Assembly: GCF_000719335.1 (NCBI RefSeq)
Contig: NZ_JOGB01000068.1
Location: 1 to 49,103 of the forward strand
Origin: Streptomyces sp. NRRL S-87
Lineage (GTDB): Bacteria; Actinomycetota; Actinomycetes; Streptomycetales; Streptomycetaceae
Direction: 5' to 3'
DNA length: 49,103 nt
The first letter of the stretch is position 1; each line of letters opens with the position of its first letter. The notes below the pieces were generated by a model. The model did not search any database. It was not told the origin of the DNA and saw only the letters and a list, made by a program, of their open reading frames with translations. Shown piece after piece: positions 7,126 to 25,483 of the stretch. Position numbers and translations under genes: made by a program.

Positions 7126-8586
7126 TCAGCGCGCGAGCACGCCGAATTCCCTGCCGGTGAGGACCTGGGAGTCGACCGGCGCCTCCACGACGCGGGTGGC
7201 CGCGGTCCCGGCGAGCTTGCCGGCCTTCGTGCCGACCGACCAGACCGCGGGCCTGGTGGCCGCCACCGGGACGGCGAGCTCGGGCTGCTTGTCGTTGTTC
7301 AGGTCCGTGACCTTGAGCTGCGAGCCGATGCGGAACGTGCCGGCGGGGCGGGGCAGACCGGGGGCGTTGTAGGCGTACCACGCGGCACCGCTGCCGGTGA
7401 CGCCCTTGCCCGTGCCCTTCAGCACGTAGAAGCCGCCACCGCTGACGTAGCAGTGCTCGCAGGTGGGCTTCCGCTCCCCGGGGGCACCGATGATCAGCTC
7501 GGGGTGGCCGTCGAGGTCGAGGTCGGCCGCGGCGAGGGAGGCGCCGAAGCGGTCGGCCTTGCCCACGCTGCCCGGGATGCCGTCGGAGTCCTCGGTGAAC
7601 GTCCGGACGCCGCGCCTGTCGTTCACACCGGTCGAGGTGCCGAAGTTGATCCGGACCAGGCCCGCGGCGTAGTCGGTGTCGATCTGGCTCTCCGCGTCGC
7701 CCACCGCGATGTCGCCGTAGCCGTCCTTGTCGAAGTCCGCGACGGCGACGCTGTTGCCTCCGCGGATCGTGACCGGAGTGATGCGGAGGCCCGAGGACCC
7801 GCCGAGGAGCACCCGGCCGCGCATGGGGCCGTCCATCCGCCGCTCGCCGAGGACGACGAGGTCGTCGGCGGCACCCTTGTCGATGCGACCGACGGTGATG
7901 CGGTCCTGCGCCAGCCCCTCCTCGAAGACGGGGTAGTCGCGGCCGAGGTCCAGCTTCCTGGGCGTGGCCGCGGTCGTGCCGTCCGTCTTGAAGGGGCCCC
8001 GGAACAGCCAGAGGGAGGTCTGGTAGCCGACGACCAGGTCGGTCTTCCCGTCACCGGTGAAGTCACCGGCCTTCAGGACGGTGCCGAAGCCGGGCCGGTG
8101 CTGCGGGTCGGGCATCAGGGTGCCGCCCTTGAGGCCGGTGGGGCTGCCCCACAGCAGGCTGACCTGGTCGCCGCGGGCGCCCACGGCGAGGTCCGCGTAA
8201 CCGTCGGCGTTGAAGTCGCCGTTGGTCAGGACCTGGCCGAAACGCCGGCCCTGGGCGGCGTCGCCCGGTACTCCGGGGCTGTTCTGGGTGAGGACCTTCA
8301 GGCCGGTCTTCTGGGCGCCGTACCGGCCGCCGTACGAGACGGTGACGTAGCCCGCGCCCGGCAGCTGCGTGGTGGCCCCGTCCGTGCCCGTGGCGTTCAC
8401 GGTGGCGTCGGGGGCGCCGATGGCCAGGTCGTGGACGCCGTCGCCGTTGAAGTCGTCGGAGAACCGGCTGGGCGCCGGACCCGCGGCGGCGGCCGCGGCC
8501 TGCGTACCGGTGGAGACCAGCAGGCCTCCGGTGAGCGTGGTGGCCGCCGCGGCGATGGCGACGGCGTGACGGATGTGGCGTCGCAC
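7126..8586 (-). CDS. Secreted FG-GAP/integrin-alpha-like repeat protein
   Basis: A 486-residue exported protein. The start is the GTG at 8586, with AGGGGGA six bases upstream; the same frame stays open for over 1.5 kb further but that part is a shadow of other genes. A signal peptide (RRHIRH, then a hydrophobic stretch to about TQAAAAAA) is followed by at least six calcium-binding FG-GAP units with DxNxDG loops: [65 protein letters not shown] and [12 protein letters not shown]. The expected fold is a beta-propeller outside the cell; ligands are unknown. One CEHC motif in a loop near the fifth repeat could form a disulfide. Confidence 0.9.
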
Positions 8587-8813
8587 GTCCGTTCCCCCTA
8601 GGTGTGCGATCAGATGAACACCCTCTGGACCCCCGGCCCCCCGAAAAGGTTGTACGCCCCCGGGCCCGCCCGCCCCGGTACCCCCTGTGCCCGTGACGCC
8701 GTCGGGCCGCCGCCCGGACCGCGAACTCTTCGTGGACGGCGGCGCCCGCCGGGTCCGACCCGTGCCGGGCAGCTCCGACCCGCTGCCCGGCAGGTCCGCC
8801 CCGCCGCCGCGGG

Positions 8814-9681
8814 TCAGCGGAACCGGTGCAGGTTCTCGACGAGGAAGTCCTCGAGGGTGCGGGGGGCGCGTCCGACGAGGCGGCGGAAGGAGTCGTCCGG
8901 TGTCTCCTCGCGAGCCACCGCGAGCTGCTGGATCTCCACCACGTGGGCGGCCAGCCAGTCCGGCATCCCGGCCCGGCCGACCAGGTGGGCGTACAGCTCG
9001 GAGGGGCTCAGGTCGAGGTAGCGGACCGGTCGGCCGAGCAACCCGCCCAGCAGTGACGTGAGTTCCGGGTGGCTGTAGGCCCGCCCGCCGGTGAGCGGGT
9101 ACGTGCCGCCGGCCGACGCCGGACGGGTGAGGACCTCGGCCGCGGCGTCCCCGATGTCCCGGACGTCCACGTAGTTGCACCGCGCATCGCCCGTCGCGCC
9201 GTGCACGACCCCGGCGGCGGCGATGCCGGGCGCCAGGAGCAGCAGCTTCTGCATGAAGGCGTACGGCCGCAGGACGGTGGCGGTGACGCCGCAGGACCGC
9301 AGCCGCTCCTCGACCAGGTGGTGGCCGCGCGAGACGGCGACGGGGGAGTCCGGTTCGGCGGCCGGCGCGGAGACCTTGACGACGTGCGTCACGCCGCAGT
9401 CGACGGCCGCGTCGATCGCGTCGAGCTCGTACCGGACCTGGTGCGGGCCGTTGGCCATGGTGAGGAAGAGCTGGTGCGCGCCGCGGAAGGCCGCCCGCAG
9501 GGACTCCGGATCGGCGGCGTCGGCGCGGAGGACCGTGGTGCGGGCGAGCGTGCGCGCGTCGAGTGCCGAGGTCAGGCGGGCGGGGTCGCGGCTCAGGGCG
9601 CGGCTCGGTACGCCGAGGGCGGCGAGGCTGCGCAGGGTGGCGCCGCCGGTGTGCGCCACCGGCGCCCATGATGACGATCAT
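8814..9681 (-). CDS. NmrA-family NAD(P)-binding protein with a frameshift in the nucleotide-binding loop
   Basis: The main frame encodes about 280 residues of an atypical short-chain dehydrogenase of the NmrA/QOR2 type: VSAPAAEPDSP, GHHLVEERLRSCG, the NYVDVRDIG block and YPLTGG. It can start only at a GTG at 9659, which would leave out the first beta strand. A better start is the ATG at 9681, with GAAAGG upstream and an ATGA overlap with the preceding gene; it reads MIVIMGAGG and then falls out of frame. Removing one G near 9660 joins it as GAGGHTGG, an exact GxxGxxG loop, to TLRSLAALG. The gene is either freshly broken or misread. It forms an operon with the small membrane protein under the MarR-type operators. 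Confidence 0.75.
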
Positions 9682-10169
9682 GAAGTCTGCCTTTCGGGTC
9701 GGGGTGTGACGGGGAGTCGGTGCTGCGGTGCGCGGGCCGGGCCGCTCCCGCGTCGGCGCCAGGTGGTGACGGCGGCCGCGATCGCCGAGGAGACCGGCAG
9801 GTCGACCGGCAGCCGGCGCGGCCACGGGCTGTCGGCGAGGGCCGGGACGTGCGGCAGCCCGTGGGCGGCGGCGAGGCCGACGGCCAGGCCGAGCGCCGCG
9901 CCGGCGAGGCCCGCGGCGGCGGCTGCGAGCGCGCGCGGGGTCCGGCCGGGCCGGGCCCGGAGGGGGCGGCGCCGCAGCACGGCGCCGAGGGCGGCGGTCA
10001 CCAGGGCGGAGGCGCCACCGATGGTGGTGAGCGCCGCGACCACCAGCTGCGGCTGCCCGGTCACGGCGCCGCCGAGACCGGCCGTCGCCGCGGGCATGGC
10101 GTAGGCGACCAGGACCTCGCTCCACGCACTCGGGGGCGGGGGAGCGCCGGCAGCCTTCCTCGTCATCAT
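9678..10169 (-). CDS. Small membrane protein of unknown function, first gene of a MarR-controlled operon
   Basis: A 163-residue protein with about four hydrophobic segments (roughly 20-40, 43-63, 80-102 and 120-135) and a basic C-terminus. No family is recognised. It begins with two consecutive ATG codons after an AGAGG site; 10169 is used. Its stop overlaps the start of the NmrA-type gene as ATGA, which means translational coupling. The promoter region carries two inverted repeats that share their core with the site in front of the neighbouring MarR gene, so repression by that MarR protein is inferred. Confidence 0.7.
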   Translation of the reverse strand: MMTRKAAGAPPPPSAWSEVLVAYAMPAATAGLGGAVTGQPQLVVAALTTIGGASALVTAALGAVLRRRPLRARPGRTPRALAAAAAGLAGAALGLAVGLAAAHGLPHVPALADSPWPRRLPVDLPVSSAIAAAVTTWRRRGSGPARAPQHRLPVTPRPERQTS

Positions 10170-10193
10170 CGGTCGTCCTCTCGAACAAAGTAA

Positions 10194-13765: not shown

Positions 13766-16700
13766 TCAGTCCAGGAGCGCCGTCACCGGCGACATCGCGT
13801 CCCACCCCGGGTCGCGGCCGGTGAGCCGCCGTACGACCCGCTCCCACGCCAGCCGATCCGTGCCGAGGCGCCGCCCGACCAGGTCCGCCAAGGCCTCCAG
13901 GGCGGCGGCGGCCTCCGGCGGGGCGTCCGTACGGAGCCGCGCCGAGCTCAGGTAGGAGAGCACCAGCACGGCCGGGGTCGCCACCTCCAGCAGGTCGCGG
14001 GCGCGGAGGTGGCCCGAGGCGAGCAGCCCGTCGAACTGCATGACCGGCGGGGCACTGTAGAGCCCTCCCAGGCCGAAACGGCTGCGGGCCCGCGTGAATT
14101 CGGGCCCCTCGGGCAGTCCGCCGGGTCCGGGCTCCGGTGCCAGCTCGGGATGGCGGAGCCGGAGCTCCAGGGGCGCGTCCGGGCGCCGGACCAGCCACGC
14201 CCACTGCGGCAGCGGCTCCTTCGCGTGCTCGGCGGCGAGGACGTCCCAGTCGGGGGCGTGCGGGAAGACGCGACGGTACGGGTCGTCCCCCTCCCCGGAG
14301 GCGGTGCGCAGCTTCGCGGCGAGCTTGACCGGGTCGGTCTCGAGGGCGAGCCGGGCCCGCACGACGGCGGCCGGGTCCGCGGACGCCAGCGCCTTCGCGC
14401 AGAGTTTCGTGGCCGCCCGGCCGAGCACCCCGCGCGCCACGAGCGCGGCCAGCCGGTCCCGGCCACCGTGCTCGACCAGGTGCAGGCAGCCGGTGAGCTG
14501 CTGGACGAGACTCAGCTCGGGCGAGCGGGTGAGCACCGCCTCGACCAGGTCGGGCTCGGCCGAGGCCAGCCAGCGCAGCGACCCGGCCGGCTGCCCCCAC
14601 GGACCGGCCGGCATCCGTTCCAGGACCAGCTTCCCCAGCTGCTCCGCGCGCTGCGTGCCACCGGCCCGGGAGCGGCGGACGATCCGCCGGCGGACCGGCT
14701 CGGGGGCGTTCTCGGCGAGCAGGAAGTAGTCGACCTCGGGATCGCCCAGGTCGGCCAGCCGGTCCGCGGTACCGGCCGGCAGGCGCCTGGCGCCGGCGGC
14801 GAGGACGTACATGGCCCTGGGGTCGCGCCCGGCCAGCAGCCGGTCCAGCACGGTCCGCGGGGTCCGCTCGTGGCGCAGCAGGTACGCGGCCAGCAGCCAG
14901 GGGCCGTCCGGGCCCAGGCGGGGCAGGACCGCGTCGACGGTGTCGGCGTCCGCCATGCACAGCATCGTGGCGATGGGCCACTGCCACAGGTGGCTGCCGC
15001 GCCCGCTCTGCCGGACCGCCTCCTCGGGCGTGGCCGGCAGCGGCGTGGGCTGCCCGTACTTCCACTGCCCCAGCGGCCGCCGTGCCGTGGCGGCCCGCTC
15101 ACCGGTGCGCGCCTCCCCGGTCCCGTCCCCTGCCGCCCCGGCACCGCAGCCGTCCGTCCCGGCGGCCCCACTGCCGTCCGCCCCGTCGGTCCCCCTGCCG
15201 TCCACCTCCCCGGACCGGGCCAGCCGCACCAGCTCGGGCCAGGTGAGCCCACCGCCGCCCGTGTCCAGGTCGCCGCCGCCCGCGGCGGCCACGGTCCCCG
15301 CGAGCCGCAGCCAGGCGTCCGGGTCGGCGCCCAACTCGGTGCGCAGCAGGCGGGCCACGCCGGCCTGCCACGCAGTGGCGAAGGCCTGCCGCCGCCAGTC
15401 GCCCGGCAGCGGGAGCAGGTACTGCGCGGGCAGCCCGTCGAGCAGGTCGGCCACCGTCAGGATCCCGTGCTCGTACGCGACGGCGACGGACCGGGCGGTG
15501 GAGGGGGCGAGACCGGCGAACGTCGCCCGCGCCTCGTCCCGGGTGGGCGCGACCGACCACCCGCGCGTCCAGGGTGGTCGTACCCCGTGGTCCGCGCACG
15601 CCTGTGACAGCCACCGCGGGGTGGCGAGTCCGGGCGCGTCCTCGTCGCCGTGGGCGGCGAGGAAGAACAGCACGCCGGGGTCGGAGGGAGCCGGCGCGCC
15701 ACCGTCGGCGAGGCAGCCGCGCAGGACGTCGAGGGCGGCCAGCGCGGCCCGCTCGTACGGGGTGCGCGGCCGCTCGGGTGCCTCGGCGGCCGCAGCCGTA
15801 CCACCGTCGGCGGGCGCGGCGGACGGGACGACGCCGTCCGCGGCGGCCTCGGCCTTCCCGGCCTCGGTGATCACCTCGTGCAGGGTGCCCCCGTGCCGGG
15901 GGAGCAGGGCCCCGAACGCCGCCCATGCCTCCGGGCGTTCCCCGAGCGCGCCCTCGGCCAGCTCGGCGAGTCCGGCCAGGAGCGCTCCGCCCAGCAGCTT
16001 CCGCCGCGCCAGCGCCTGCAGGGCGCCCAGCGCGTGCACGGCGGGGCGAGCGGTGGAGACCAGGTCGGCCGGGTCGAGCAGGCCGGCCGCCGCCATGCCC
16101 TCCGCCCACAGCGACGCCCTGTCGTCGAGCGCCTCGCTGGCGAGGCGTCGCGCGGGCGGGGTGGTGTTCCCGGTGCGTCGGCCGCCGCCCTGCCACGGGT
16201 CGTTGAGCGTGCTCAGCCGGAAGGCGAGGCGCTGGGCGTCGTCGGCGTCCTCGTGGCGGGCCAGCTCGACGGTGGCCTTCGGCATGAAGGGGGTCTTCGC
16301 ATGGGCTTCCGACAGGGCCCGGAGGTCGTACGCGTACGGCTCGGCGAGCAGCACGCGCAGCGTGCTCGTGCGCCGCGTGGCCGCCAGCAGCGCGGGCAGC
16401 CGCGCGGGGTCCCCGTACGGCTCGCAGCGGGCGCGCAGGGCCGCGAGCGCCGCCCCCGAACCGTCCTCGGCCGCGAGGGACCTGGTGACGCGGGAGAGGA
16501 CCGGCGGGGTCAGGTGCGCGCGCACCGCCGGGTCGTCCACCAGTGCGCGCACCGCGTCCGGGCCGGTCCGCTCCCAGACCCTGACCAGCGCGTACTGCTG
16601 GGCGACGCCGCGGGCCCCGGCCACGGCACGGGCCGTGAGACCCGGGTCGCCGGACACCAGCAGCGGCGCGAGCCACGTGCTCGGCAGCTCGCCCGCCGGG

Positions 16701-17437
16701 TCGGTGAGTTCGGCGTACAGGCCCTCGTCCATGGGGACGTCGTCGAGGCGGCCCGCGAGGGTGCGGCGCAGTGTCTGGGTGGCGCGCGGGTTGCGGTAGA
16801 CCGCGGCCCCGACCCGCGGGTCCCCCGTGTCCAGCAGCCGCGCCAGCACGCGGGCGTCGAGCCGGGTGTGGCGGGCGAGCGCGGTCCTGGTCCGGGTGTC
16901 ACCGTGCCCCGCGACGGCGTCGGTGAGCACCGGCCCGGGGACGGGCCCGGTGGCGAGCAGCAGGTCCAGGGTGTCGTCCGGGAACACGGCGAGGGCCGCG
17001 GCCGCGTCCTGCGGCGGCGTGTGCTCCAGCAGCAGGGCGAGGGTGGCCTGGACGCTGCGCGGCGCCGGCACGCGTACGACGCCCGGGGCGGCGGGCGGCG
17101 CGGGCGGCGGTACGTCCGCCAGCAGGTCGGGCAGTGTCCCGCGGTGGCCGGCGAGCGCGTCGTGCACGCCGAGCCACCGCCCGGGGGAGCCCGCGAGATG
17201 GTCCCGCACCAGGGCGGCCAGCCGCCGAACGGCGTCCTCGTCCGGTCCGCCGGCGGCGGCCACGGCGGCCGCGACGGTCCGGGCGGGCCGCGTCCGCGCG
17301 ACGGCCCGCGCCGCGGCGCCCGCAGCCACCGGGCGGGGCTCCTCGCGGGCCAGGGCGAGGAGGTCCCGCAAGGTCTGCGCGGTCGAACTACTGTGCGTGG
17401 TGCTCATGGACGCCATGGTAGGAACCGGGTCGGACAT
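13766..17437 (-). CDS. Very large helical-solenoid protein (leucine-rich-variant/HEAT-like)
   Basis: A 1223-residue protein of unknown function, the longest gene here. The start at 17437 has GGAGG three bases upstream; ATG codons 7 and 10 codons further on are alternatives. Most of the chain is repeated amphipathic helix pairs of 20-25 residues rich in Leu, Ala and Asp (for example ALARHTRLDARVLARLLDTG and GDPRVGAAVYRNPRATQTLR in the first 250 residues), typical of LRV/HEAT-like solenoids. Around residues 765-800 a Gly/Asp/Ala-rich linker divides it into two arms. No transmembrane segment, signal peptide or enzymatic motif is visible. A scaffold or protein-binding role is inference from the fold. 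It is a single-gene unit; no partner is suggested by position. Confidence 0.8.
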   Translation of the reverse strand: MSDPVPTMASMSTTHSSSTAQTLRDLLALAREEPRPVAAGAAARAVARTRPARTVAAAVAAAGGPDEDAVRRLAALVRDHLAGSPGRWLGVHDALAGHRGTLPDLLADVPPPAPPAAPGVVRVPAPRSVQATLALLLEHTPPQDAAAALAVFPDDTLDLLLATGPVPGPVLTDAVAGHGDTRTRTALARHTRLDARVLARLLDTGDPRVGAAVYRNPRATQTLRRTLAGRLDDVPMDEGLYAELTDPAGELPSTWLAPLLVSGDPGLTARAVAGARGVAQQYALVRVWERTGPDAVRALVDDPAVRAHLTPPVLSRVTRSLAAEDGSGAALAALRARCEPYGDPARLPALLAATRRTSTLRVLLAEPYAYDLRALSEAHAKTPFMPKATVELARHEDADDAQRLAFRLSTLNDPWQGGGRRTGNTTPPARRLASEALDDRASLWAEGMAAAGLLDPADLVSTARPAVHALGALQALARRKLLGGALLAGLAELAEGALGERPEAWAAFGALLPRHGGTLHEVITEAGKAEAAADGVVPSAAPADGGTAAAAEAPERPRTPYERAALAALDVLRGCLADGGAPAPSDPGVLFFLAAHGDEDAPGLATPRWLSQACADHGVRPPWTRGWSVAPTRDEARATFAGLAPSTARSVAVAYEHGILTVADLLDGLPAQYLLPLPGDWRRQAFATAWQAGVARLLRTELGADPDAWLRLAGTVAAAGGGDLDTGGGGLTWPELVRLARSGEVDGRGTDGADGSGAAGTDGCGAGAAGDGTGEARTGERAATARRPLGQWKYGQPTPLPATPEEAVRQSGRGSHLWQWPIATMLCMADADTVDAVLPRLGPDGPWLLAAYLLRHERTPRTVLDRLLAGRDPRAMYVLAAGARRLPAGTADRLADLGDPEVDYFLLAENAPEPVRRRIVRRSRAGGTQRAEQLGKLVLERMPAGPWGQPAGSLRWLASAEPDLVEAVLTRSPELSLVQQLTGCLHLVEHGGRDRLAALVARGVLGRAATKLCAKALASADPAAVVRARLALETDPVKLAAKLRTASGEGDDPYRRVFPHAPDWDVLAAEHAKEPLPQWAWLVRRPDAPLELRLRHPELAPEPGPGGLPEGPEFTRARSRFGLGGLYSAPPVMQFDGLLASGHLRARDLLEVATPAVLVLSYLSSARLRTDAPPEAAAALEALADLVGRRLGTDRLAWERVVRRLTGRDPGWDAMSPVTALLD

Positions 17438-18407: not shown

Positions 18408-18776
18408 CTACTCGGGCGCCCGGCGGGTGAACGTGAACGTCAGGCTCGACGAGCCCGCGAGTTCCCCGCCGGAGCCCAGGAGGGAGACCTGGCCCTTCGC
18501 GCTGACCTCGGCGCTGATGGTGACCTCGTTCAGCTCGAAGTCCCCGCAGTGGGCGGGCAGGGCCCCGATCACCGACCGCATCGAGTCGAGGAATCCGGTG
18601 ACCCGCTCCTGGAACACCTCGAGCGGGACCTCGGCCCGGCCCAGCCGCCATTCCTGAGAGCGCCGGAACAGGGAGCGGTCGTCGCCGTCCTCCAGGCCGA
18701 TGACGCGGACCACCGCGGGCCCGTCGGGCTTGGGCCGGTCAGGGAGCGGGGACTCGGTTCGCTGGGAGATCGACAT
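18408..18776 (-). CDS. Pepco-like small protein, third gene of the CHAT operon
   Basis: A 122-residue protein. The ATG at 18776 is chosen because AGAGG lies 6 bases upstream; it then overlaps the end of the CHAT gene by 38 bases, so translation is probably coupled. The N-terminal 20 residues are Pro-rich and flexible; VVRVIGLEDG begins a strand, a helix follows (PLEVFQERVTGFLDSMRSVI), and the second half is beta-rich with the ending GSSSLTFTFTRR. Size, the VRV...G opening, the central helix and the S-L-T-F-T-F end resemble the Pepco (peptidase co-occurring) domain described in bacterial conflict systems. This is by eye. It may be the substrate, regulator or effector partner of the neighbouring CHAT peptidase. 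Confidence 0.75.
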   Translation of the reverse strand: MSISQRTESPLPDRPKPDGPAVVRVIGLEDGDDRSLFRRSQEWRLGRAEVPLEVFQERVTGFLDSMRSVIGALPAHCGDFELNEVTISAEVSAKGQVSLLGSGGELAGSSSLTFTFTRRAPE

Positions 18777-20019
18777 CTGCATCCTCTGTCGGGTCGGTGC
18801 GGACATGGAGCTGTGGATCCGCGTAGGCCGCGTACGCGATGCCGAGCGGATTCCCGTACGTGTGCAGCAGGCTGTTGCGGGCTTCGAACACCGAGCGGCC
18901 CAGTGGCAGCCGACGGAGCAGGAACCGCTCGTACAGCGCCTGGGAGAAGGCCGCCGCCACCTCGTCCGGCACCTCGATCTCACTGCCGACGAAGCCCCGG
19001 TTCCCGTTGGTCAGGAAGAGGTGCGGGAAGGAGAGGGAACTGGTCGCGTGCATGCGCGCCGACCCGCAGGCGTTCATGACCACGAGCGGCATCTCGTCGC
19101 TCTCGTGCCCGGGCCGGGACTTCAGCGCGACCAGGTCCTCCGCGATGGTGCCGAGCTTCACCCGGAGGTCCCGGCCGCCGCCGTGCAGCTCGATCTCGTT
19201 GTCGAGGGGGCTGTCGAGCGTGGCGTAGCAGTGGCAGGCGAAGTGCTGGATCTGGTCGGGCACGGCCCGGACCTCGCCGGCGAGCGAGCGCCGGGGGTCG
19301 AAGATCTGCTCGGCCAGAGTGGCGGCCCCGGTGTCGTCGCCGTCGCCGGGGTACGGACCGTCCACCTCGACCCGGTCCGCCGCCGCCGAGGTCAGCCAGT
19401 CGAGTTCGCGCCGGGCCCCGGAGAGCAACTCGTGCCGCAGGAAGCGCAGGGGCAGCCGTCCTCCCGGCGCCGGCCGCAGCGAGAGCCCCGTGGGTACCCG
19501 GGCGGGCAGCAGCGTCCGCTTGACCACGCAGGAGAAGCCGACGAGGTCGCGGCACTGCGCGACGAGCTCCGCACGGTCGGCCGGCACGGTCGGGTACATC
19601 CGGTGGAGGGGCAGCAGTTCGAGGGGGAGGAAGCAGTCGCGGTCGCCGACGCACTCCACGAGCGGAGGGGGCAGCGCCGGGTTGCGCCCGACGGGCAACG
19701 CGGCGTTCCAGAAGGCCTGGAGGCCCTGGATGACCCCGGCCTCGAGGCCGAACAGGAGGAAGACGAGCCCACGGCCGATGCGGTGCAGCACGTCGAACAC
19801 CTCGGGGACGTCCCCGTCGTCCACCGCCAGGCCCGGCAGCACGTCCTTGAGTCCCAGCAGCCCGGCGTCGAGGCGGCGCCGGGCCACGTCCATGACTCCT
19901 GGCTGGGGCAGGGTCATCCGCAGGGGCGGTGTGCCGTTGCGGGCCTGGAAGACGACCTGGGTGGTCCGAGCCGTACGCCGCACCCGGACGGTGACGTCGG
20001 CCGGCTGGCTGCCCGTCAT
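18739..20019 (-). CDS. CHAT-domain cysteine peptidase
   Basis: A 426-residue protein. Residues about 120-410 form a caspase-like CHAT domain: DCFLPLELLPLHR (128-140), the catalytic His263 in IQHFACHC (257-264), the catalytic Cys318 in VVMNACGSA (313-321), then GFVGSEIEVPD and NPLGIAYAAYADP at the C-terminus. All expected active-site elements are present. The first 110 residues, including the strands VRVRRT and QVVFQAR and a helical part, are a separate domain that could receive a signal. There is no signal peptide. ATG overlaps the stop codon of the membrane protein gene (ATGA, 20016-20019), and the Pepco-like gene starts inside its 3' end. CHAT peptidases cleave a dedicated partner upon activation in known conflict systems; here the likely partners are the two neighbours. 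Confidence 0.9.
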   Translation of the reverse strand: MTGSQPADVTVRVRRTARTTQVVFQARNGTPPLRMTLPQPGVMDVARRRLDAGLLGLKDVLPGLAVDDGDVPEVFDVLHRIGRGLVFLLFGLEAGVIQGLQAFWNAALPVGRNPALPPPLVECVGDRDCFLPLELLPLHRMYPTVPADRAELVAQCRDLVGFSCVVKRTLLPARVPTGLSLRPAPGGRLPLRFLRHELLSGARRELDWLTSAAADRVEVDGPYPGDGDDTGAATLAEQIFDPRRSLAGEVRAVPDQIQHFACHCYATLDSPLDNEIELHGGGRDLRVKLGTIAEDLVALKSRPGHESDEMPLVVMNACGSARMHATSSLSFPHLFLTNGNRGFVGSEIEVPDEVAAAFSQALYERFLLRRLPLGRSVFEARNSLLHTYGNPLGIAYAAYADPQLHVRTDPTEDADVDLPANRVPAP

Positions 20020-22454
20020 CCGGAGTCCTGCCCGCGCACGTCGCCCCCGGACCGCGCCTCGGAAGCCGCGGCCCGGACCGCGATCGAGACCGCGATCACC
20101 TGGACGAGCCGGCCGGCCTGGTAGAGCTGGAACCACACCTCGTGCAGCCCCTCCTCCTCCGGCAGGGGGATGCGGAACACCGTCTGCGCCTCCCGCTCGG
20201 TCCGCAGGGTCCGCCGGTGGGGGCTGGGAGCGAGCGTCGGGCTGTCGACCAGCGCGTCGAACTCGGCCTCGGACACGTCCCGGCCCCCCTCGATGTGCAC
20301 CGGCTCCAGGACGAAGAACTGCCGTTCGGGCGCGATCTGCTGGGCGGATCCCGCATCCCGGCCCCGCGGGTCGCGCACCACGAACAGCACCAGGCCCAGG
20401 CGCTGCCCGGGGGACGCCACGATGGTCGCGCCCTGCGCGAGCCCGCCGGACGCACCCCCGCCCGCGGCCCCGCCGCCGACGACCTCCTGGCCGGCGTCGA
20501 GCTGGAGGGCGAAGTAGCCGGTGAAGTTCGCCAGCGGCGGCCCGGTCACGGCCTCCTCGATGCCCGCCCGCAGCACCTGCTGCAGCTCGCGGGCCGCGTT
20601 CCGGTGCAGGTCGGACAGCTCGCGCCCCAGACGTTGGCCGACCGCCGCCGACGTGCGCCGGGCCACCTCCTCGGCGAGCCGGGCCAGGTCGGTCGCGCCG
20701 AGCTGGCCGGGGCCGACCCGCCGGGCCGGCGCCTCGTGCTCGTCCCGCAGTGCGGCGCGCACCCCGCGCACCACCTCGGCCGACACCTCGGACACCAGCG
20801 CCTCGCGGTCGGCGCCCGACATCCCGACGGACCCCGCGTTCTCCGGGGGCCCGGGCGCGGCGGTCCGTACGGCACCCGTCCGGGCGAGCGGCCGGTCGTA
20901 CTCCCCGACTCCCAGCAGCGCGGCGCTCTGCCCGAGGAAGTCGGCGTGGTTGTCCGGCAAGGGCAGCCGCAGGGCCTCGGCCAGGTCGAAGCGGTACACG
21001 TCGGCCGCGTCCGCGCGGTGCTCGTACGCCGCCACCACCCGCCGACGGCCCGCCACGACCGCGGCCAGGGCGATCAGGAGCGGACCGAGGACCAGTACCA
21101 CCAAGGAGCCGCTCTCCGGCCGGGGGCGTACGAGGACCTCCGCCGCGAACCCCCACGCCGCAGCGGTGCAGACGGCGCCGGCGGCGGTGACGCGCAGCAA
21201 CGCGACGGCCCGGCCGAGGCGGCGGGCCTCGTGCCGGACCCGGGGCGGGGCCACCAGCTCGATCCGGGGCCACACCCGGTCGACGGCCAGACCGGTGGCG
21301 AACGCCGCCTCCACGACGGCGGCGTCACCGGCAGCGGGGCGCAGCGGACGCACCAGGAGCCCGGACGTCCGGACCGCGGCGCGGTCGTGGCCGAACTCCG
21401 TCCTGGCCGCGGCCTCGATGCGGCGCGCGCGTACCCGGTCACCCTCCCGGTCCGCCCGCTCCCGCCCGTACCCGTCCCACCCCGCGCGCCGGACCACATC
21501 CCGCAGGGCCCACTCGCGCTCCTCGAGCCACCGCGCCTCACGCCCCCTCGGCGTCCGTCCGGACGGGTCGTCGTCGTGGTGTGCCACCGCGTGGCGCCAC
21601 AGGTACGCGGCGGCCTTCTCCGCGATCCCGGGTGTGCACCCCGGACGCAGCCAGCCGAGCAGCAGCGCCTGGAGCACCCCCAGCACGGCCGCGGCGACCG
21701 CGAGTTCCCCGGCCCCCACCAGCACGGCGGCCGGACCGGTGCCCGGCCGGTGCTGCGTGCTGTGGAGCGCCGCCCAGCCGAGGGACCCCAGGGGTACGAC
21801 GAGACCCGCTGCCTGTGCCCAGAGCGGGACCACCGCTCCCGGCGGAGGCGGCCCGGACGGCTCCGGGAGCGCCCTGCGCGGGACGGAGAGCCGGACGCGC
21901 GGGACCGACCAGTCGTTCACCACCCACAGGGCGCCGAGCGTCCCGGCCAGCCCGGGTCCGCCCACGAGCCAGGCGGCGAGGACGCGGCCCTCGCGGGCGA
22001 GGGTGGCCACCACCAGGGCCAGCGGTACGGTGAAGACCAGCGCCAGCACCCAGCCGGGACGTCCGTCCAGGTCGTCCTGGACACCCAGCCAGAAGGTGAC
22101 CGCGAACAGGGCGGCGGCGGGCAGGGCCACCAACCCGGCCCGCTGCGGGGCCCCTCCCGTCATCAGGTGGAGGGCGAGCCAGCCGAGCAGGACGCCGGAC
22201 AGGACGACACCCGCCACCACCAGGGGCCTCTCGTGGTCGTCCATGGCGTTGTGCCGGATGACCAGTCCCACCAGGGGCACCAGGAGCACCGCCGCACCGG
22301 CGCCGGCGAGCCACGCCCACCCCGTCCGGCCGTCGAGGGCGAGGACGAACGCGAGCCACACGAGGCCGGCCTCCGACAGCACCGCCAGTGCCCCGGCCAG
22401 CACGCCCTTGGCCACGGTCGAGGCAGGCCCTCGCCTCTTCGGGCCCGAAGCCAT
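20016..22454 (-). CDS. Multi-spanning membrane protein with large soluble tail, first gene of the CHAT operon
   Basis: An 812-residue protein. Eight hydrophobic segments occupy residues about 15-270, then a soluble region of about 145 residues (rich in Arg/His/Asp), two more helices near 415-437 and 445-467, and a soluble C-terminal tail of about 340 residues. The tail has a helical part (about 540-620: DREALVSEVSAEVVRGV, DLARLAEEVARRTSAAV, RNAARELQQVLRAGIEEAV) and a beta-rich end domain with LGLVLFVVRDPRG and HEVWFQLYQAGRLVQVIAVS. No known catalytic or nucleotide-binding motif is seen. It is coupled to the CHAT gene by ATGA. A membrane-anchored sensor or platform for the peptidase is inferred from context. 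It has no clear ribosome binding site match beyond a GACGGGGGACGGC stretch. Confidence 0.85.
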   Translation of the reverse strand: MASGPKRRGPASTVAKGVLAGALAVLSEAGLVWLAFVLALDGRTGWAWLAGAGAAVLLVPLVGLVIRHNAMDDHERPLVVAGVVLSGVLLGWLALHLMTGGAPQRAGLVALPAAALFAVTFWLGVQDDLDGRPGWVLALVFTVPLALVVATLAREGRVLAAWLVGGPGLAGTLGALWVVNDWSVPRVRLSVPRRALPEPSGPPPPGAVVPLWAQAAGLVVPLGSLGWAALHSTQHRPGTGPAAVLVGAGELAVAAAVLGVLQALLLGWLRPGCTPGIAEKAAAYLWRHAVAHHDDDPSGRTPRGREARWLEEREWALRDVVRRAGWDGYGRERADREGDRVRARRIEAAARTEFGHDRAAVRTSGLLVRPLRPAAGDAAVVEAAFATGLAVDRVWPRIELVAPPRVRHEARRLGRAVALLRVTAAGAVCTAAAWGFAAEVLVRPRPESGSLVVLVLGPLLIALAAVVAGRRRVVAAYEHRADAADVYRFDLAEALRLPLPDNHADFLGQSAALLGVGEYDRPLARTGAVRTAAPGPPENAGSVGMSGADREALVSEVSAEVVRGVRAALRDEHEAPARRVGPGQLGATDLARLAEEVARRTSAAVGQRLGRELSDLHRNAARELQQVLRAGIEEAVTGPPLANFTGYFALQLDAGQEVVGGGAAGGGASGGLAQGATIVASPGQRLGLVLFVVRDPRGRDAGSAQQIAPERQFFVLEPVHIEGGRDVSEAEFDALVDSPTLAPSPHRRTLRTEREAQTVFRIPLPEEEGLHEVWFQLYQAGRLVQVIAVSIAVRAAASEARSGGDVRGQDSG

Positions 22455-24407: not shown

Positions 24408-24772
24408 GGGGGCCTCCTGGGCGTGACCGTGCCACCGGCATACGCCAGGGCGGGAGGAGCGGGGGACGCCTGGCGATCCGCAGGCGGGCGGCTTGGGTGC
24501 GGGAGCCGGTGGGGTGGGAGCGGCAGGCGGCCGTCGGAGGCCGCGCGGCAGGAGCCGGAACGCCCGACGACCCAGGTGTCGACCCCGATGCGGATGCCGC
24601 TGCGGTCGATCTGCCCGCCGGCGGGCCGGCTCATGTCCGCTCGACGCGACCGGCGTCACCGACCTGGAGTGCGGACGGCGCCGGTGTGCGCCGGAGCCTC
24701 CGGACGGCCCAGGAGACGCGGGGCCGCCGCTCGGGGCGCGGGGCGGTGTGCCGGGTAGGGCATGATCGGGGG

Positions 24773-25483
24773 ATGTCCGATCGCATCATCGCCGCTTGTG
24801 ACGGGGCGGCCAAGGGAAACCCGGGCCCGGCCGGCTGGGCGTGGGTCATCGCCGATTCCGAGGGCCGCCCCGAACGCTGGGAGGCCGGCCCGCTCGGCCA
24901 CGCCACCAACAACATCGGTGAACTCACCGCCCTCCAGCGCCTGCTGGAGGCCGTCGAACCCGGCACGGCGCTGCAGGTCCGGATGGACTCGCAGTACGCG
25001 ATGAAGGCCGTCACGCAGTGGCTGCCGAACTGGAAGCGCAACGGCTGGAAGACGGCCGCGGGCAAGCCCGTCGCCAACCGGGAGCTCGTCCAGAGCATCG
25101 ACGAGCTGCTCTCCGACCGGGACGTCGAGTTCCGCTACGTTCCGGCGCACCGCGAGGACGGCGACCACCTCAACGCGATCGCCGACCAGGCCGCCAGCGA
25201 TGCCGCCACCAGCCAGGAGGCGGCCGGCACCGCACTGGGCACCCCCGACATCCCCGTACCCGCGCCGAACCGCACCGCCCCGCCCGCCCGCCGCAAGCCG
25301 GCCGCGGCCGCCCGCCGCACCAACGCGTCCGCCGGCTCCGACGCACCGGTCATCAAGGCCAAGTTCCGCGGCACCTGCCCCTGCGGACGCCCGTACGCCG
25401 CCGGCGAGAGCATCACCAAGCTGGGCACCCGCTGGGGCCACCCGGAGTGCCGCTCCACGCTCCCCGGCGCCGCCCCCGCCTGA
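24773..25483 (+). CDS. rnhA: Ribonuclease HI with an extra C-terminal tail
   Basis: A 236-residue protein starting at ATG 24773. Residues 1-140 form an RNase HI domain that removes RNA from RNA:DNA hybrids. The four metal-binding acids are in place: Asp10 (ACDGAAKGNPGP), Glu50 (NIGELTALQ), Asp72 (MDSQYA) and Asp138 (NAIADQAA). It is followed by a basic Pro/Ala-rich linker (about 145-195) and a small terminal module with CPCGRPY and GHPECRS, a C-x-C...H-x-x-C set that could bind zinc and nucleic acid. Plain RNase HI is about 150 residues, so the tail is an addition. It is cytoplasmic. Convergent with the zinc-ribbon peptide gene, separated by a perfect hairpin. Confidence 0.9.
   Translation: MSDRIIAACDGAAKGNPGPAGWAWVIADSEGRPERWEAGPLGHATNNIGELTALQRLLEAVEPGTALQVRMDSQYAMKAVTQWLPNWKRNGWKTAAGKPVANRELVQSIDELLSDRDVEFRYVPAHREDGDHLNAIADQAASDAATSQEAAGTALGTPDIPVPAPNRTAPPARRKPAAAARRTNASAGSDAPVIKAKFRGTCPCGRPYAAGESITKLGTRWGHPECRSTLPGAAPA

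Follow-up and report, generated by a model that had tools for sequence, protein, structure and literature searches.

How can a CHAT-family cysteine peptidase be kept in check, and released, when no nucleoside triphosphatase (NTPase) is encoded with it? This question is raised by three overlapping genes in a 49,103-nt stretch of Streptomyces sp. NRRL S-87 DNA (contig NZ_JOGB01000068.1, positions 1 to 49,103; called the window below), which encode a polytopic membrane protein, a CHAT peptidase and a small Pepco-domain protein. NB-ARC/STAND-linked caspase-like peptidases follow an Apaf-1-like logic, and STAND proteins are already known to be linked with CHAT or caspase-like domains. Such links are partly covered in PMC12881547 and PMC10907252. 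The original prediction for this DNA had put the membrane protein in the place of the NTPase sensor. In this conserved operon, a C-terminal domain that the membrane protein shares with NLR-like switch proteins suggests, from sequence comparison, that this protein could be an alternative trigger of the peptidase, and the original interpretation as a whole is partly supported. The features of the operon are as follows.

20016..22454, minus strand: gene 1, membrane protein, 812 amino acids
18739..20019, minus strand: gene 2, CHAT-family cysteine peptidase, 426 amino acids; Pfam PF12770, E 4.8e-11; His263 and Cys318
18408..18776, minus strand: gene 3, Pepco-domain protein, 122 amino acids; Pfam PF24393, E 8.9e-18
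20016..20019, minus strand: ATGA stop/start overlap of genes 1 and 2, the ATG of gene 2 lying on the TGA of gene 1
18739..18776, minus strand: 38-base overlap of genes 2 and 3, the ATG of gene 3 lying inside gene 2
20019..20609, minus strand: C-terminal domain of gene 1 (CHAT partner domain, CPD), residues 616-812 as cut for the alignment; profile match 616-801

The coordinates confirm the predicted layout of three same-strand genes for proteins of 812, 426 and 122 amino acids, which overlap by ATGA and then by 38 bases. The operon is also without an NTPase, as had been claimed, because none of the three proteins contains a Walker-A-like motif or matches an NTPase family in Pfam; no NCBIfam or PADLOC model matched any of them at E 1. 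Protein searches, with the query included, returned at least 84 CHAT, 45 Pepco and at least 17 membrane-protein relatives (the CHAT and membrane-protein searches scored just the candidates sharing most words), and a genome scan with one genome per species gave 25 loci. The triplet occurs in the same order in all 15 nearest loci (L014-L028), which belong to Streptomyces, Paractinoplanes, Nocardia and Saccharothrix, genera of four actinobacterial families, and whose flanking genes have nearly nothing in common. Chance neighbourhood is unlikely because the triplet is kept whole in 15 of 15 of these loci, and it was rejected as an explanation. The genes had been predicted to form a conserved module, and the outcome named as speaking against it, homologues lying mostly apart, was not observed. 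With the window and L084, from another genome of the same genus, the triplets total 17, while L085 and L086 were left out of the counts since their match scores equal those of L019 and L014. Genes of the fetched loci were called to the first possible start, so that some lengths (L019, L026) are too long. Overlapping start codons of genes 2 and 3 are available in 17 of 17 triplets, with varying overlap lengths; in the window the exact start of gene 3 is a choice, because two more in-frame ATGs lie upstream of the one used here. Also outside the counts, the linear Streptomyces plasmid NZ_CP108701.1 (570,792 bases) bears an annotated triplet with overlaps of 4 and 17 bases, which is located about 27-32 kilobases from one plasmid end, downstream of two transposase genes (L157:348-7645).

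The C-terminal domain of gene 1, for which the name CPD was coined in this analysis, is about 150-180 residues long and has the pattern GPPLVNYDGW ... FQLYQxGRLVQ. In this CHAT subfamily, every one of the 34 loci has a CPD in the gene directly upstream of CHAT, a count that describes the subfamily and not CHAT at large, because the loci were picked by likeness to the window CHAT. Besides the triplets they include 17 loci of distant CHATs, which are L029-L038 from the genome scan and, from a survey of the taxonomic family that includes the L030 genome (15 of 150 genomes matched at E 1e-20), L087-L093. The CPD ends at most 17 residues from the C-terminus in 33 of the 34 partner proteins, with 102 residues beyond it in L034. 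To avoid circularity, a profile was built from the 17 triplet proteins alone and run against 2,527 reading frames of 24 other loci (the 17 with distant CHATs of the subfamily and 7 others). The 17 best-scoring proteins coincided exactly with the upstream partners of the 17 distant CHATs (E 1.6e-11 to 8.9e-4), the next matches being at E 0.019 (a CHAT-like protein of L095) and then E 4.3. When profile was compared with profile, the triplet CPD scored 97.5% against that of the bPH_2 set, 98.1% against that of the AAA-TPR and NB-ARC proteins, 94.8% against NB-ARC alone, and 99.4% against the other membrane partners. Of 22 genome entries searched with the CPD alignment, two proved by an identical match place to be one genome; 19 of the resulting 21 genomes have one copy each, the other two having been picked for a Pepco match, and there are at least two CPD matches among 396 actinobacterial genomes, that of the window included. 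No Pfam family was over its cut-off in the CPD region of gene 1, of 31 aligned homologues and of 12 other partners (E limits 1, 0.1, 0.01 and 0.1), where the homologue scan gave family tallies without positions and a few single-member matches at E 0.006 or worse. Likewise, no NCBIfam model matched this region in gene 1 and 9 partners, and no solved relative was found by sequence (best E 1.2). The CPD is a portable domain that has no Pfam or NCBIfam model in the proteins scanned. Three CHAT-like proteins lie outside the subfamily: no CPD gene precedes those of L094 and L095 within the sequence read, and for L098 that sequence does not extend to the upstream side. The L095 protein (L095:4904-7036) is longer, is matched by an in-house CHAT profile and not by the Pfam CHAT model at E 0.01, has a SEC-C motif at its end, and at residues 188-228 faintly resembles the CPD end (E 0.019 with the held-out profile); it is possibly a remnant fusion. 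The L098 protein (L098:858-2837), the frame of which reaches the end of the stretch, represents another CHAT architecture with DUF7363 and a TCAD7 match just under the cut-off.

The part of the partner protein in front of the CPD varies. Across the 17 triplets the mean pairwise identity was lowest in this part (0.37), and amounted to 0.50 in the CPD, 0.60 in CHAT and 0.62 in Pepco. In the 17 distant loci the gene directly before CHAT differs from the triplet membrane protein, and none of their front ends matches the window front end at E 0.01 in BLAST. Pfam identified DUF4407 in L029 (E 4.7e-58), bPH_2 in L031 (5.5e-13) and L088 (2e-11), NB-ARC in L091 (4.3e-10) and L092 (9.3e-10), a weak AAA_16 (E 0.001, below cut-off) with TPRs in L036, and HEAT repeats in L034, with some remaining partners matching no Pfam family; the Pfam bPH_2 assignment was made on L031 and L088 alone, while L032, L033, L035, L089 and L090 are called bPH_2 by 47-70% identity to L031. 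BLAST sorted the front ends into nine sets, which are the seven of bPH_2 type, L030 with L093 (33% identity), L091 with L092 (52%), and six singles. A P-loop is present in three of the 17 partners (two NB-ARC, one AAA-TPR), while 14 have no Walker-A-like motif; at least one transmembrane-like segment is found in 16 front ends, L091 and L092 having two each and L036 none. Hence, one CHAT subfamily with one tail domain is coupled either to an NLR-like switch or to a P-loop-free membrane module. In a tree of the CHAT proteins the 17 triplets form one clade (100/98) with the two NB-ARC loci beside them (85/87), and the AAA-TPR locus falls in another group together with bPH_2 loci (100/99). On this tree, two changes account for the label NTPase versus membrane, and eleven, the fewest possible, for twelve front-end labels, where twelve is one label too many since the L030 and L093 front ends are related (33% identity over 201 residues). 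The tree and these changes suggest that front ends were swapped on several occasions and passed on by descent afterwards; the long branches of L034, L037, L038, L087 and L093 are uncertainly placed, and the outlier single-gene CHATs fill less than half of the columns. The L034 partner (L034:6019-9666) has an N-terminal GGGIRSALFSLGVLQ stretch, several transmembrane-like segments, the CPD and C-terminal HEAT repeats. By its recognized motif we take the GGGIRSALFSLGVLQ stretch to be patatin-like, without Pfam support and with the usual nucleophile serine seemingly absent; in Pfam this protein matched just HEAT-type repeats and a sub-threshold Vitellogenin_N.

Gene 1 itself matched no Pfam family (best E 0.26), and a search for a Pfam name for the membrane part, in gene 1 and its aligned homologues, was equally negative. 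Hydropathy averaged over 32 homologues showed ten hydrophobic segments (8 + 2) followed by a soluble tail of 343 residues (470-812), which agrees with the original estimate of about ten helices and a tail of about 340 residues, while in the single sequence under a stricter cut-off seven helices pass. The tail starts with RRR and is negative overall, and segments 8 and 9 are separated by a 152-residue loop with a mean net charge of +5.1. The positive parts, all on one side, are the N-terminus (with four Lys/Arg and no acidic residue), the loop at 180-210 and the long loop; two short loops on this side are slightly negative (-1.1, -1.3), contrary to the positive-inside rule. Because positively charged loops mark the cytosolic side under this rule, the N-terminus, the 152-residue loop and the tail are predicted to be cytosolic (N-in, C-in; the loop charges mostly fit). 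This topology would place the CPD on the same side of the membrane as the cytosolic peptidase.

The tenth segment ends at residue 469 and the CPD starts at 616, and the linker between them is the center of the main rival explanation, in which gene 1 encodes the effector or substrate: the CPD-held CHAT would cut this linker, and the freed membrane part would be a channel or membrane disruptor, comparable to gasdermins or Csx30. It is consistent with the observations that CHAT substrates are often encoded near the protease and that activated TPR-CHAT cleaves Csx30 (PMC9729208), and that in P. anserina a gasdermin is activated by a CHAT protease with TPRs (PMC12881547). The varied front ends on a constant part are also reminiscent of the variable effectors described in PMC7159879. 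The 14 partners without a Walker-A-like motif and the 16 front ends with a transmembrane-like segment would also suit it. However, the three NB-ARC or AAA-TPR partners are switch-like rather than effector-like, and the triplet membrane parts match no pore or toxin family, so that we regard an effector role as unlikely, although worth keeping in view. A trigger role of gene 1 is rated above it, because proteins of the NB-ARC and AAA-TPR kinds are established switches and not final effectors, while the remaining partners are for the most part membrane proteins without an assigned function. The short outside loops and the varied front ends could also mean that gene 1 is a mere anchor placing CHAT at the membrane, with an unlinked factor or a ligand of CHAT or Pepco as the trigger. 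Entire NB-ARC and AAA-TPR proteins would be excessive for anchoring, however, and with no transmembrane-like segment in L036 and two each in L091 and L092 this explanation appears very improbable.

The peptidase assigned to gene 2 is supported by the PF12770 match over residues 257-387 (43.1 bits versus a curated cut-off of 24). His263 and Cys318 are located exactly where the original prediction had placed them; they are presumably the catalytic pair, as in the CHAT family pattern. Among the 84 homologues listed (query included), Cys318 is present in 84 and His263 in 83. The nearest solved chains by profile were 8tl0 (E 3.5e-4) and 8rot (E 0.0021), both titled 'CHAT domain-containing protein', and the alignment to 8tl0 spans the Cys only. 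Because His263 is replaced by Asp in L092 and by Glu in P0079, some members may be inactive. In L092 the CHAT protein beside the NB-ARC partner (L092:8668-9939) has Asp in the motif ACDC, and His259 is invariant in 34 of 34 loci; judged by its residues, the L092 CHAT may be inactive or may use His259 instead.

The small protein is Pepco, as had been predicted, since it matches PF24393 with 65.3 bits versus a curated cut-off of 27, and 45 of 45 homologues match this family; its core SAKGxxSLLGSGGE is strongly conserved. Of the 34 loci, 18 have Pepco next to CHAT (L037 in addition to the 17 triplets), so that Pepco does not belong to the core pair. It was detected in 6 of the 396 actinobacterial genomes at E 0.001 and in 4 over the cut-off, and two of these four loci (L080 and L081) have no CHAT match within the stretch fetched. 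Pepco seems to serve other systems too. In L080 (L080:3913-9217) it adjoins a 1,568-amino-acid protein with iHD-CE and wHTH-HSP90_Na-assoc domains, and in L081 it is located between a 400-amino-acid protein without a family and glutamate dehydrogenase. Trypco1 and Trypco2 are small partners of trypsins (PMC7159879) and are termed adapter domains in PMC10907252. They resemble Pepco in being encoded beside a peptidase, but a distant kinship is not supported, as the Pepco profile has no detectable relation to either: the hhalign probabilities were 0.9% and 0.5% versus 1.7% and 0.4% for reversed controls, with Trypco1 and Trypco2 profiles of 25 Streptomyces members each. Only one of the 45 Pepco members matched Trypco1, at E 0.11. 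No solved relative of Pepco was found by sequence (best E 0.40). The phrase 'Pepco domain' was not found in the literature searched, which comprised open-licence papers, and 'pepco' and 'chat' are absent from the main text of Kaur et al. 2020 (PMC7159879).

The distribution of the operon is patchy: 37 genomes were sampled from the genus, that of the window included, and 3 of them hold a near relative (E <1e-100). An empty insertion site was not seen, as among the matches listed the flanks lie side by side in none of 61 genomes of the genus, that of the window excepted. Surveys of Alphaproteobacteria (1 of 240 genomes, the L038 genome itself) and of the phylum to which the L034 genome belongs (2 of 149, L034 itself being one of the two) added little. 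Such patchiness is unlike a core developmental gene, and it bears on the possibility that the system belongs to regulatory or developmental proteolysis of actinomycetes, outside conflict, with a membrane protein or an AfsR-like NB-ARC protein controlling the processing of a regulator by CHAT. This possibility draws on the NB-ARC part of L092, whose closest solved structure by sequence is AfsR (E 2.5e-28), on the NCBIfam results for L091 and L092, in which an AfsR model ranks first but stays far under its cut-off, and on the fact that no defence model matched. On the other hand, the plasmid copy near transposase genes and the poor conservation of the membrane part do not fit it, and we consider it improbable.

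Together, the gene content and its conservation, the shared CPD, the gene overlaps, the His/Cys pair and the absence of a P-loop are direct observations, and the proposed role of gene 1 builds on them. The membrane module could stand in for an NLR-like switch, because in relatives the CPD–CHAT pair goes with NB-ARC or AAA-TPR proteins. The cytosolic CPD of gene 1 would bind the co-translated CHAT and keep it restrained at the inner membrane face. The input might be a perturbation of the membrane, or a ligand acting within the bilayer or at the cytosolic loop of 152 residues, and the change in the membrane part would be relayed through the CPD to license CHAT, which would then cleave target proteins, most plausibly with a growth stop or the death of the infected or stressed cell as the outcome. 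Pepco may act as a small peptidase-associated regulator that tunes or inhibits CHAT. In this scheme the front end would decide on the release of CHAT, and in the window this decision would be made in or at the membrane. We give about even chances to the view that this is a membrane-tethered protease signalling module, in which the membrane protein keeps the protease at the membrane and serves as an alternative trigger that needs no NTPase. More tentatively, and with the balance tipped slightly toward doubt, the CPD could be a docking unit through which either NLR-like NTPases or membrane proteins without an NTPase command CHAT interchangeably, which would amount to a split, modular bacterial 'apoptosome' with a polytopic protein in the job of the NLR.

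A close link of CHAT and CPD is indicated by two further comparisons, each of which has its limits, and several other results count against the trigger model. A CHAT start codon in a 4-base overlap with the stop codon of the CPD gene is available in 27 of the 34 loci, which are related to each other (15 ATG, 7 GTG, 5 TTG), among them all 17 triplets and some loci whose partner is of bPH_2, DUF4407 or AAA-TPR type. It is missing in L034, L037, L038, L090, L091, L092 and L093, and so in both NB-ARC loci; in 5 of the 27 overlaps the start would be the rare TTG, and only the reading frame is informative, because TGA preceded by A, G or T always makes a start codon. The CHAT and CPD distances correlate with r of 0.95 (34 loci), 0.94 (17 non-triplets) and 0.91 (triplets), with 0 of 999 permutations as high in each case, which could arise from linkage and common descent alone. 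The CPD matches are moderate in the NB-ARC pair (3.2e-7 and 3.4e-5) and weak in the proteobacterial loci L037 (E 8.9e-4; best stretch 0.28) and L038 (E 2.9e-4; best stretch 0.018). No carrier of a relative was found in the viral contigs and phage records searched, and PADLOC 2.0.0 recognized none of the three window proteins at E 1 and none of ten proteins of related loci at E 0.001. Moreover, the longest outside loop of gene 1 has 21 residues at most on the predicted topology, which leaves no room for an external receptor or sensor domain. The original placement of the membrane protein in the position of the NTPase sensor gains support, as its CPD also occurs in NB-ARC and AAA-TPR proteins that are encoded upstream of related CHATs in the same way.

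CHAT peptidases with partner genes are already known. In Craspase, the type III-E system of a TPR-CHAT bound to a gRAMP (Cas7-11), CHAT is activated through its partner and cleaves a neighbour-encoded substrate (PMC9729208); it shares with the window the CHAT His/Cys pair and the nearby encoding of partner and substrate, but the three operon proteins, to which the scan for Cas matches was confined, have no TPR, Cas or RNA-trigger part. Gasdermin–protease pairs are similar in that a protease gene adjoins the gene of a membrane-acting protein (PMC12881547), but gene 1 is polytopic and has no gasdermin family match at E 1 in Pfam. With the NB-ARC/STAND-linked caspase-like peptidases the likeness is that the CPD–CHAT pair of the relatives occurs with NB-ARC and AAA-TPR proteins, whereas the window partner has ten transmembrane segments and no P-loop, the peptidase and the switch are separate genes, and the CPD is constant. 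The nearest described membrane-linked arrangement found was the EACC1-caspase pair ('System 4', Kaur et al. 2020), in which a membrane-protein gene is followed by a caspase-superfamily gene; it is prevalent in actinobacteria, and membrane sensing has been proposed for it (PMC7159879). The EACC1 partner is a single transmembrane helix with short extensions (PMC7159879), in contrast to the about ten segments and CPD of gene 1, which did not match EACC1 at E 1. The open-licence literature searched gave no description of a system in which the CPD partner is polytopic.

Three other genes were noted elsewhere in the window.

7126-10188, minus strand: 1,020-amino-acid reading frame with FG-GAP repeats
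13766-17437, minus strand: 1,223-amino-acid reading frame downstream of the triplet, no Pfam match at E 0.001
24761-25483, plus strand: RNase H domain protein

If the CPD docks the peptidase as read here, it would provide a direct handle on the switching of bacterial caspase-like peptidases. Because one peptidase subfamily occurs with and without NTPase partners, the part played by the NTPase would be testable by swapping front ends on one tail. If true, this reading would add a new domain, without a Pfam or NCBIfam model, by which CHAT partners can be recognized in genomes, and a way of controlling CHAT peptidases through the membrane.

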